Assembly (NCBI GenBank): GCA_003931895.1
Contig: RRZV01000017.1
Coordinates: forward strand, 62,001-126,000
DNA length: 64,000 nucleotides
Direction of reading: 5' to 3'
From: Mesohalobacter salilacus
GTDB taxonomy: Bacteria; Bacteroidota; Bacteroidia; Flavobacteriales; Flavobacteriaceae
Part shown: positions 18,082-25,214 of the stretch, in pieces
Layout of the letters: each line of letters begins with the position of its first letter
How positions within the stretch are numbered: position 1 is the stretch's first letter
Notes under the pieces: generated by a model
Told to the model about the DNA's origin: nothing
Seen by the model: only the letters and a program-made list of their open reading frames with translations
Database searches by the model: none
Translations under genes and position numbers: made by a program

Positions 18082-18403
18082 TTTTTTGCAAAGGTAATTG
18101 AAAATTAAAGATTTAAACTTAAATGAAATAGATTTAGTAGCTGAAGCCTGCTTTGCGTTCTATCTCTTGCCGTAAAACAAACCACCTGTAAGGTTTGGCA
18201 GGATTACCACTTTTTGTGGCACTCTGCCCAACCAACAGTTGCTAAGCTTTACAACAAGAGGATGCCACTTCAATCAGGGCTATACGTTGAGAAGTGAGGT
18301 TTAATAATTTAGGTATTATGTAAATAAGATGTTGAAATACATAATTTTGAGTTGTTCAATGTCTTAATTTCAACTCTAAACCACTAACTAATGATCCGTG
18401 AGA
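18082..18403. other. Intergenic stretch of 322 bases with one structured element
   Basis: No credible coding sequence. The left part is AT-rich promoter-like sequence ahead of the RluB-like gene. Bases 18138-18282 hold a structured element on the minus strand, described separately. From 18283 to 18403 the sequence is AT-rich with no clear signal. Confidence 0.6.
18138..18282 (-). ncRNA. Structured intergenic element, copy A
   Basis: Read on the minus strand it starts TAGCCCTGATTGAAGTGGCA. The main stem pairs the strand segment at 18248-18260 with that at 18164-18176 (13 pairs, two of them G-U). Inside it a hairpin has outer stem TTGGGCAG/CTGCCAA and inner stem CCAC-AAAAA-GTGG. The 3' flank reads CAAGAGATAGAACGCAAAGC. 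The flanks and main-stem location match copy B at 23792-23961 (GGCATCC before and AAGA-ATAG after the stem). This resembles the structured elements reported as Flavo-1 in Flavobacteria; the class is suggested, not proved. Whether it is transcribed as RNA or acts as DNA is unknown. Confidence 0.55.
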
Positions 18404-22864: not shown

Positions 22865-23524
22865 TTATGAGTTTGGTTTGATGTATAAATTTTGAGTTGC
22901 CTGTTCAGAAAGACGTAACGCTTTATCGTCATAGGCCACAAGCATAGACTGGTCAAAACTTTCTTTTTCTTTAACAATCAAGGTTTTACCGAGAGCAATA
23001 GCTTGTTTGTCTAAATAATTTAAAAAAGCAGGTGAAGAATCTTTTACGCCCACGCAGACCCCTGATTCGCCAATTTCTAATTCAGATAGCATGGTTTTAT
23101 TTGCTACTGCAAATTGTCCATCTTTATTTGGAATCGGGTCACCATGTGGGTCGCGCTTGGGATAGTCTAAAAATCTATCGAGTTCATCGGTGAGCTTTTC
23201 AGATTGAATATGCTCGAGCTGTTCGGCGATTTCGTGAACTTCGTCCCAGTTAAAATTAAGTTTTTCTACTAAAAACACTTCCCAAAGTCTGTGTTTTCTA
23301 ATCACTTTTAAAGCTGTGGTTTCTCCCCTATCACTTAATTTAACGCCTTGGTATTTTTTATAAACTACCAAGTTTTTATCTGCTAACTTTTTCAGCATAT
23401 CAGTTACTGAGGAAGCTTTTGTCTCTAAAATTGAAGACAAATCATTGGTGCTCACCGCTTTGCTATTTTCATGATGTAGATGATAAATGGCTTTCAGGTA
23501 ATTTTCTTCTGCAAGGCTAAGCAT
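22865..23524 (-). CDS. DtxR/MntR-family metal-dependent repressor
   Basis: 219 residues from the ATG at 23524 (a GTG six bases earlier would add two). The N-terminal winged helix begins LSLAEENYLKAIYHL, with the recognition helix around TKASSVTDMLKKLADK. The dimerisation and metal domain contains RKHRLWEVFLVEKL and VHEIAEQLEHIQSEKLTDEL, followed by the DPHGDPIP motif, and a C-terminal FeoA/SH3-like domain. With iron or manganese bound it should repress its targets. The promoter region carries a 14-bp palindrome (23558-23571). It forms an operon with the ZIP transporter. Confidence 0.92.
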   Translation of the reverse strand: MLSLAEENYLKAIYHLHHENSKAVSTNDLSSILETKASSVTDMLKKLADKNLVVYKKYQGVKLSDRGETTALKVIRKHRLWEVFLVEKLNFNWDEVHEIAEQLEHIQSEKLTDELDRFLDYPKRDPHGDPIPNKDGQFAVANKTMLSELEIGESGVCVGVKDSSPAFLNYLDKQAIALGKTLIVKEKESFDQSMLVAYDDKALRLSEQATQNLYIKPNS

Positions 23525-23557
23525 TAACACAAATTTTACGCTAAAATAAATAAATTT

Positions 23558-23571: not shown

Positions 23572-23791
23572 TATTTTTCTTTTAAATCAAGAATTAATAT
23601 TTGTAACGTGATTTTGACTAACAATATATAGTGTTTTTTAACTTAAAAGATGAAGAATAACACTTGTATTTTCATCATAAAGCCTAATTTCGATACAATT
23701 TTTCTTCGTTTTACTTCGAAAAATCACTCAATTTGACGGCTTTATAAAACTAAGCTATTTAAAATCGAACTCACGTTTGTATTGTTTTGGC

Positions 23792-23961
23792 TTAGGGGTA
23801 GTAACGGCATCCTTCTTGAGTTTTGTTTTAGCGAAGTGGTGTATTGGGGTTGACGCCATAGAGCGTTAAACCCAAAACGCCTACTGAGACTTGACAAAAC
23901 TCAAGAAGATATAGTGGATAACCCGGTATGCCTGCGATTTAAGCAGGCATAAAGCCCCTAA
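23792..23961 (+). ncRNA. Structured intergenic element, copy B
   Basis: Nested pairing over 170 bases. The ends TTAGGGG (23792-23798) and CCCCTAA (23955-23961) pair. The main stem is a perfect 15-bp repeat, 23812-23826 with 23894-23908. Inside it 23844-23856 pairs with 23863-23875 (12 of 13, six-base loop). A third hairpin, TATGCCTGC (23927-23935) with GCAGGCATA (23943-23951), follows the main stem. Conserved strings shared with copy A include GGCATCC before the main stem and an AAGA-ATAG stretch after it. It resembles Flavo-1-like elements. Function unknown. Confidence 0.6.
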
Positions 23962-23966
23962 TTATT

Positions 23967-25214
23967 TTAATGTATTAAGTTTTGTAAAATCCCTTCACAA
24001 GTTAAAGCTGTTGCTCCTTTTTTATCTTGAACAAAATCATAGGCCGCTTTACTCATTTTAGTTTTAAATTTTTGTTCATCATTCAGTTTACGGACTATAT
24101 TTTGGAGCTCTAAAGTCTTGCTAACCACAGCCAAACCGCCTTTTTGTTTTAGGGCTTTGGCTTCAGGGAATTTGTCATAGTTGGGTCCAATAATAATCGG
24201 AACGCCAAAAGCAGCAGGTTCTAAAATATTATGCAGACCTGTTTTACCCATGGCACCACCGACATAAGCAATGTCAGCATAGGCATAGACTTTTGTGAGC
24301 AAGCCAACGGTGTCTAAAATCAAGACATCGAATTGGGATAAGTCTTGGGTTTTAATTTCTGAATATTTGATGCTGGATTTTTGAAGTTGTTTTTGAAATT
24401 GGTCTATGGCTTCAGTTTTGATTTGATGGGGTGCAATGACAAATTTGAGTTTAAGGGTTTTATCGTTTAGGGTTGTTAACAATACTTTTTCATCTTCTGG
24501 CCAAGTGCTTCCACAAACCATACACTGCTTATTCTCCTTAAAATCTTCCATAAAATCAAGTTTGTTATCTTGATTGAGTTGCTGGTAAACTCTATCATAT
24601 CGCGTATCTCCTGTATGTGTCCAAGAGGTGTAGTTGATGCTGTTAAGCAAATGTCCAGAAGTTTGATCTTGCACAAAAATATGTTGAAAACTTTTTAATG
24701 CTTGCTTAAAAAACCGACCATAGGCTTTAAAATAAACCTGTTGTGGTCGAAATCTTGCGGCCACTATAAACGTTTTGATGTGCTGTTTGTTGAGTTCTCT
24801 TAAAAAATTTGGCCAGATATCGTATTTTACAAAAATGGCAAATTGGGGTTTAATGAGATTGACAAAATCTTGAGATTGACTTTTGGTATCTAAGGGTAAA
24901 TAGGTTTCAAAATTGGCTATGGATTTATTCTTTTTGATGCGATATCCTGAGTCAGAAAAAAAACTCAGTAGAAATTGATGAGTTTTAAAATGAGGTTTTA
25001 AGGCTTTGATAACGGGCACCACTTGCTCGTATTCGCCGAGAGAAGCCACATGAACCCAAATGATAGGCGATTGGTTTTGGGCTATAAAATTTTCTAATTC
25101 TTTATTGGTATGTTGTCTTTCTAAACGAAAGGTTTTAAGGCGTTTAAAAAATAGGCCTAAAATGGGTAACAATATTTGAAAACCATTGATAAGAAAATTA
25201 TAAATCCATCTCAT
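23967..25214 (-). CDS. waaA: 3-deoxy-D-manno-octulosonic acid (Kdo) transferase
   Basis: 415 residues, a GT-B glycosyltransferase. The N-terminal membrane anchor (YNFLINGFQILLPILGLFF) is followed by the acceptor domain with the catalytic Glu in WVHVASLGEYEQ. The C-terminal CMP-Kdo domain has VCGSTWPEDEKVLL, FVIAPHQIKTEAI and VGGAMGKTGLHNILEPAAFG. It attaches Kdo to lipid A precursor at the cytoplasmic face of the inner membrane, an essential step of LPS synthesis. Divergent from the DegT aminotransferase, a neighbour I recall from other flavobacteria. Confidence 0.93.
   Translation of the reverse strand: MRWIYNFLINGFQILLPILGLFFKRLKTFRLERQHTNKELENFIAQNQSPIIWVHVASLGEYEQVVPVIKALKPHFKTHQFLLSFFSDSGYRIKKNKSIANFETYLPLDTKSQSQDFVNLIKPQFAIFVKYDIWPNFLRELNKQHIKTFIVAARFRPQQVYFKAYGRFFKQALKSFQHIFVQDQTSGHLLNSINYTSWTHTGDTRYDRVYQQLNQDNKLDFMEDFKENKQCMVCGSTWPEDEKVLLTTLNDKTLKLKFVIAPHQIKTEAIDQFQKQLQKSSIKYSEIKTQDLSQFDVLILDTVGLLTKVYAYADIAYVGGAMGKTGLHNILEPAAFGVPIIIGPNYDKFPEAKALKQKGGLAVVSKTLELQNIVRKLNDEQKFKTKMSKAAYDFVQDKKGATALTCEGILQNLIH

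Follow-up and report, generated by a model that had tools for sequence, protein, structure and literature searches.

The structured intergenic element beside waaA in the 64,000-nucleotide stretch of Mesohalobacter salilacus DNA that we analysed (the window) is, with hardly any room for doubt, a member of the Flavo-1 family (Rfam RF01705). This family is already known, and the copies described here are further members of it. Flavo-1 is probably a dispersed repeat that turns over at the level of DNA. As the best overall explanation, to which we give an even chance, we propose a REP-like DNA repeat that is seen as a folded single strand.

Copy B and its place in the Flavo-1 family

The window contains two copies of the element on opposite strands. 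Copy B matches the full RF01705 model (positions 1-76) with 43.0 bits at 23785-23932 on the plus strand, and copy A matches the full model (1-76) with 47.7 bits at 18140-18285 on the minus strand; the gathering threshold of the model is 42 bits. A two-arm scan, using two position matrices derived from 38 copies (A and B included), found no copies in the window other than these two. The features of both copies and of the genes next to copy B are as follows.

18138-18282, minus strand: copy A, a Flavo-1 element of class II with a short outer helix (TAGC/GCTA) and no side hairpin (RF01705 match)
22865-23530, minus strand: gene for a metal-dependent repressor of the MntR/DtxR type (PF02742, PF01325, FeoA domain), its 5' end towards the 5' end of copy B
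23789-23961, plus strand: copy B, a full Flavo-1 element of class I with an outer helix (RF01705 match; side-by-side comparison of 38 copies)
23789-23793, plus strand: 5' arm (GGCTT) of the outer helix P1, paired with 23952-23956
23792-23798 with 23955-23961, plus strand: alternative outer helix TTAGGGG/CCCCTAA, specific to copy B
23794-23812, plus strand: conserved 5' core arm, including purine internal-loop bases
23812-23826, plus strand: 5' arm of the perfect 15-bp stem, pairing exactly with 23894-23908
23826-23842, plus strand: apical module, 5' side, of the TTTTAGCGAAGT.. type, shared with copies L002 and L004 of this genome
23878-23895, plus strand: apical module, 3' side, of the ..CTACTGAGACTTGAC type
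23894-23908, plus strand: 3' arm of the 15-bp stem
23908-23925, plus strand: conserved 3' core arm
23927-23951, plus strand: side hairpin P3, TATGCCTGC...GCAGGCATA (fold predictions)
23952-23956, plus strand: 3' arm (AAGCC) of the outer helix P1 (fold predictions)
23967-25214, minus strand: waaA, encoding Kdo transferase (PF04413, E 3.5e-40), its 3' end towards the 3' end of copy B

The earlier note had described a perfect 15-bp stem and a position next to waaA, and both are found: the stem is formed by 23812-23826 and 23894-23908, and the neighbouring gene matches PF04413. The nested order that it had given for four helices needs one correction: the hairpin at 23927-23951 is not nested in the long hairpin, the two standing side by side within the outer helix. 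Its ends for the element, 23792 and 23961, fit the helix TTAGGGG/CCCCTAA that is specific to copy B; they do not fit the family-consensus helix (23789-23793 with 23952-23956). The likeness between A and B on opposite strands is real, both being matches to RF01705, and the suggestion of a repeatedly duplicated structural element agrees with a catalogued family of which the proposed genome-wide search revealed seven more Rfam matches. A and B represent different subtypes, B having the outer helix and side hairpin and A only a short outer helix.

Counting A and B, the draft genome contains at least nine Flavo-1 copies, a lower bound because the Rfam search scored 150 of 484 candidates. Matches to RF01705 occur in 25 of the 27 genomes of the genus; for the family the count is 100 of 149 genomes. 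A pattern scan of viral contigs yielded eight stretches, six of them with a strong scan match.

The Flavo-1 RNA motif was introduced by Weinberg et al. in 2010 (PMC2864571). Rfam types RF01705 as an sRNA gene and models it with 76 nt. Copies A and B, both above the gathering score, have the same core arms and pairs, and add to the model an outer helix, a side hairpin (in B) and an apical extension of ~70 nt that is modelled as an insert. The accessible text of the literature naming Flavo-1, mostly from non-subscription journals, gives no function for it (the function column of a 2022 sRNA review is empty) and does not call it mobile.

Covariation in the core and the strand that is seen

Laying 36 retrieved copies side by side with A and B revealed that conservation reaches beyond the 76 nt of Rfam, with little conservation in the flanks outside the element. 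In class I, to which copy B belongs, the main hairpin sits inside an outer helix, often together with a side hairpin that is variable; class II, represented by copy A, has a short outer helix (TAGC/GCT) and no side hairpin. The variants of P1 covary between copies (GCGTTA/TAACGC, GGCTTA/TAAGCC, GCGTAA/TTACGC and further compensated variants).

Two G.A oppositions in the core are each present in 114 of 114 distinct copies, an invariance that is partly ascertained because the scan selects for likeness to its matrices. A third purine opposition is A.G in 111 of these copies and swapped to G.A in three; copy B carries the rarer swap, together with AC/GT central pairs. Covariation is not affected by the selection in this way: one core pair between the oppositions is A-T in 53 copies, T-A in 51 and G-C in 9, with one exception, and another is C-G in 61, T-A in 37, T-G in 10 and something else in 6. 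Over 150 copies, the seven core pairs comprise 1016 Watson-Crick, 19 G.U, 2 A.C and 13 other combinations, whereas 1000 shuffles of the arms between copies gave a mean of 659 Watson-Crick pairs and a maximum of 696. For genome G128, with 29 copies, arm shuffling reduced the Watson-Crick pairs from 199 to 141. The arm types are matched (v1/v1 in 93, v2/v2 in 29 and v2b/v2b in 12 of the 150 copies), 16 copies have at least one unclassified arm, and mixed v1/v2 arms do not occur among the 150; these pair and copy counts are not independent, because the copies are related by descent. Flavo-1 copies thus have a conserved paired core with covariation.

As plus-strand RNA, copy B is predicted to fold with -79.9 kcal/mol (z -9.8 against 200 dinucleotide shuffles). 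The z values against dinucleotide shuffles are -8.4 for the plus strand as DNA and -7.9 for the minus strand as RNA.

An A.C opposition on one strand is a G.U pair on the opposite strand. On the annotated strand, the core and apical stem contain 2106 Watson-Crick pairs, 40 G.U, 5 A.C and 25 others, the apical count leaving out copies with a stem that could not be parsed (20 of 114 in one such count). For copies with both neighbouring genes antisense there are 19 G.U and 1 A.C; five of these 19 belong to copies in the ssrA leader, which are sense to ssrA, and the remainder is 14 against 1. A cruder count of all internal mismatches in any helix was discarded. It had the opposite sign (73 G.U, 103 A.C); 84 of these oppositions were C.A, and we attribute most of the 84 to a conserved bulged C beside the stem. 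The count that replaced it, restricted to fixed core pairs and to the part of the stem past this bulge, was chosen after the first result had been seen. The RNA folding energy is better for the plus strand in 105 of 150 copies and for the minus strand in 44, but in the antisense group the plus strand folds better in only 44 of 76. Since the wobble asymmetry persists where the neighbouring genes are antisense, the folded plus strand seems to be what selection sees, also where no gene is transcribed that way.

We consider it possible, if rather unlikely, that Flavo-1 is an RNA element, with a transcribed plus strand folding into an RNA that some protein, for instance a ribonuclease, binds or processes, whether as an independent sRNA or as part of leaders and antisense transcripts. 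A preference for G.U is expected of RNA as well, which is a point against the DNA reading, and the better RNA fold of the plus strand also speaks for a transcript. The share of G.U is low for an RNA, however: 40 of 2176 pairs (1.8%) compared with 60 of 871 (6.9%) in 40 tRNAs. Among 138 intergenic copies, 75 are antisense to both neighbours and 30 are sense, against 202 and 187 for background intergenic gaps in the retrieved 20-kb stretches, a skew that is inflated by shared orthologous sites and is reversed in genome G128 (3 antisense, 12 sense). The antisense majority speaks against an RNA element, and the skew also weighs against the favoured DNA reading. No promoter excess was seen 5' of the element when 150 copies were searched for TAnnTTTG (5' flanks, 32 on the plus and 35 on the minus strand; 3' flanks, 30 and 13). 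According to the available text of a 2021 transcriptome study of F. psychrophilum, Flavo-1 matches are 'indistinctly' sense or antisense, and many are not in transcribed regions (PMC9723704). The tests run here give the sRNA label of Flavo-1 no clear support, and the published data are mixed.

Occupancy, turnover and mobility

The occupancy of Flavo-1 sites is patchy. A copy within 1.5 kb of waaA is present in two of the 25 genus genomes with a waaA match, this genome and its close relative Mesohalobacter halotolerans (two others are on short contigs). Absence from relatives, which the earlier note had proposed as a check, is evident at site B, which is occupied in one of 79 named waaA loci, that of Mesohalobacter halotolerans. 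Judged by eye, genome G019 may retain decayed remnants at both site A and site B.

Thirty loci were compared in the genus to which G128 belongs: 13 have a copy in the gap preceding a gene that resembles prephenate dehydrogenase (identified by eye), in one further locus the copy lies past an inserted reading frame, and 16 have none. On the tree of this genus, with the locus containing the inserted frame scored as a carrier, presence changes seven times by parsimony, and at least four of the changes are forced by well-supported branches. Most of them are probably losses, because the early branches carry the copy. Core types v1 and v2 replace each other at this site, in both arms together and with the outer flank unchanged; gene conversion from another copy would be the simplest cause, with re-insertion as the alternative. 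Such frequent loss and block replacement at one site in close species is a further point against an RNA element. In the gap after the query gene of loci L414-L439, two other hairpin repeats, of the GTCATTGCGAGGAACGAAGCAATC and TTGTCAGGCTGAGCGAAGTCGAAG types, are present or absent independently.

Some copies are old and have been kept at the same site in different genera, in the suf operon and the ssrA leader. The sufD-sufS gap is filled, in antisense orientation, in eight genomes of different genera (L175, L180, L181, L184, L186, L191, L196, L199); the central pairs are changed on both sides in two of the eight and the unpaired bases are kept, which would suit an RNA element. The same can be said of ssrA, where 13 of 24 loci in the genus (L146-L166) have the element in sense orientation in the tmRNA leader, just before mature ssrA, with promoter-like sequence recognised by eye upstream; partial deletions of the element occur at other ssrA loci. 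Nine loci have a copy between homogentisate dioxygenase-like and hydroxyphenylpyruvate dioxygenase-like genes, and four have one before trpG (gene functions at the suf, dioxygenase and trpG sites were named by eye from sequence).

Copy A differs from its Mesohalobacter halotolerans ortholog at 28 of 132 positions. Of 44 pairs, predicted from these two sequences themselves, 11 are changed, eight on both sides and three on one, and none is broken. Copy B differs from its counterpart at six positions, and one stem pair is broken there by a single base and left out of the alifold structure of the two. The changes in copy A and at the suf site point either to conversion or to constraint acting on single sites. 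A purely selfish repeat has no need of site-level selection, and this is the main evidence weakening such a reading.

Mobility, which the earlier note had suggested, is likely in view of the patchy occupancy and the block swaps, and the turnover documented here consists of loss and block replacement. The other marks of a mobile element were not seen: we recognised no target-site duplication or clean new insertion on comparing filled and empty sites of close species, the intergenic region being too variable, and found no mobilising enzyme. Inspection by eye of recurrent sites in clusters of at least three revealed no transposase nearby, the neighbours being housekeeping-like.

Contig C41 of this genome (L141, 1599-2723) has two inverted copies flanking a 68-aa frame and an HNH_2 nuclease gene. 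This unit interrupts an HpaII-type cytosine methyltransferase gene. One part of the gene matches PF00145 at 1-232 and the other at 272-323, and an Acinetobacter plasmid carries an intact homolog that runs across the breakpoint. The insertion is not a clean one, because ~18 residues of this homolog lack an equivalent. The HpaII nuclease gene adjoining the unit is likewise in two pieces. In genomes G033, G126 and G049 a methyltransferase frame (judged by eye in G126) ends at a Flavo-1 copy that is followed by a homologous HNH nuclease, at two further positions (L395 2250-2309; L401 1776-1835; L397 about 2264-2360, diverged and placed by eye). Each time the methyltransferase boundary coincides with the outer 3' end of the element. 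The junctions suggest movement, but decay of a restriction system around a pre-existing repeat could also produce them.

As a regular companion of Flavo-1 the HNH unit was rejected. A homolog is present in 10 of 199 genomes, and a copy adjoins it in four by the matrix scan (G000, G033, G181, G126) and in a fifth, G049, by eye; with Rfam at E 0.01 there are adjoining matches only in G000 (two), G181 and G126. Taken jointly, these observations might mean that copies of Flavo-1 are the end markers of a novel type of bacterial mobile element, in which a folded single strand would be copied or cut by a putative enzyme, copies would exchange hairpin cores as blocks, and two inverted copies could bracket a gene to form a composite unit. 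The C41 unit, interrupting the methyltransferase exactly at the outer ends of its elements, would then be the first of its kind. We regard this joint reading as speculative and quite unlikely as a whole.

Other explanations, proposed mechanism and meaning

It is improbable that the hairpin serves the genes' own mRNA (the minus strand at B), as a 3'-UTR stabiliser or a terminator downstream of waaA. On the mRNA strand copy B begins 5 nt after the waaA stop codon and folds there (z -7.9, as above), and many copies are antisense just beyond a stop codon. On that strand, however, the wobble counts turn into A.C (40 against 5), terminator-like sites at B number 0 against 0.4 expected, and copies near waaA are as scarce as described above.

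Considerably less probable still is a classical REP sequence mobilised by a RAYT/Y1 (IS200-like) transposase. Like the REP and BIME sequences that go with RAYT (TnpA-REP), as far as the available text of two papers describes them (PMC6006769, PMC3733652), Flavo-1 copies are short, dispersed, intergenic, imperfectly palindromic and patchy between species. Unlike them, Flavo-1 is longer, has an outer helix and purine internal loops, and lacks a GTAG-type foot, its conserved ends being GCGTTA/TAACGCC or TAGC/GCT. Mobilisation by RAYT is disfavoured, as no Flavo-1 copy is tied to a Y1 locus: a Y1_Tnp match is absent in 9 of 20 Flavo-1-rich genomes, and no Flavo-1 was found in 30 Y1 loci retrieved from the rest of these 20 or in the Y1 loci of the genus. 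Genome G025 has four near-identical RAYT-like genes within 9 kb (L123 4135-13192) with flanking inverted CCCCTGCTGGTGCGAGCGT repeats, which are unrelated to Flavo-1. Weak Y1_Tnp matches lie inside open frames of ~930-1280 aa (G000:C6:2135-2296, and similarly in G005, G009, G018 and G019).

The boxes of integron attC sites read RYYYAAC...GTTRRRY. An attC site is an imperfect hairpin recognised on one folded strand, as we propose for Flavo-1, but the Flavo-1 ends GCGTTA...TAACGCC have the reverse box order (consensus, compared by eye), and no cassette array was seen. With MITEs Flavo-1 shares its non-coding, dispersed nature and its turnover between species, but no target duplication or parent transposase was found for it. 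Finally, a chance resemblance of A and B can be dismissed, since both match a curated model and the two-arm scan gave no match in ten Markov sequences of 64 kb (640 kb).

In the explanation that we favour, Flavo-1 is not a small-RNA gene but a REP-like DNA repeat, non-coding and dispersed. When exposed as a single strand, its plus strand would fold into a hairpin that has conserved purine internal loops and is enclosed by the outer helix, and a putative trans-acting protein, of the host or of the element, would recognise this folded strand. Whether single-stranded DNA is the recognised form is in our judgement a toss-up. New copies would arise rarely, possibly by transposition; established copies would be remodelled by block replacement, most simply by gene conversion from another copy, and copies would be lost by deletion. 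Our preference for DNA over RNA is a leaning only, with the two nearly in balance, and is due to the lack of a promoter excess, the published transcriptome, the low wobble share and the turnover.

Since 2010 Flavo-1 has figured among the structured RNAs that lack an assigned function. The HNH/methyltransferase junctions, provided that they reflect movement, would be a place to look for the enzyme. The annotation of each Flavo-1 copy as an sRNA gene may mislead, and testable alternatives as to what Flavo-1 is are provided by its strand asymmetry, its patchy occupancy of sites and the joint swaps of both arms.
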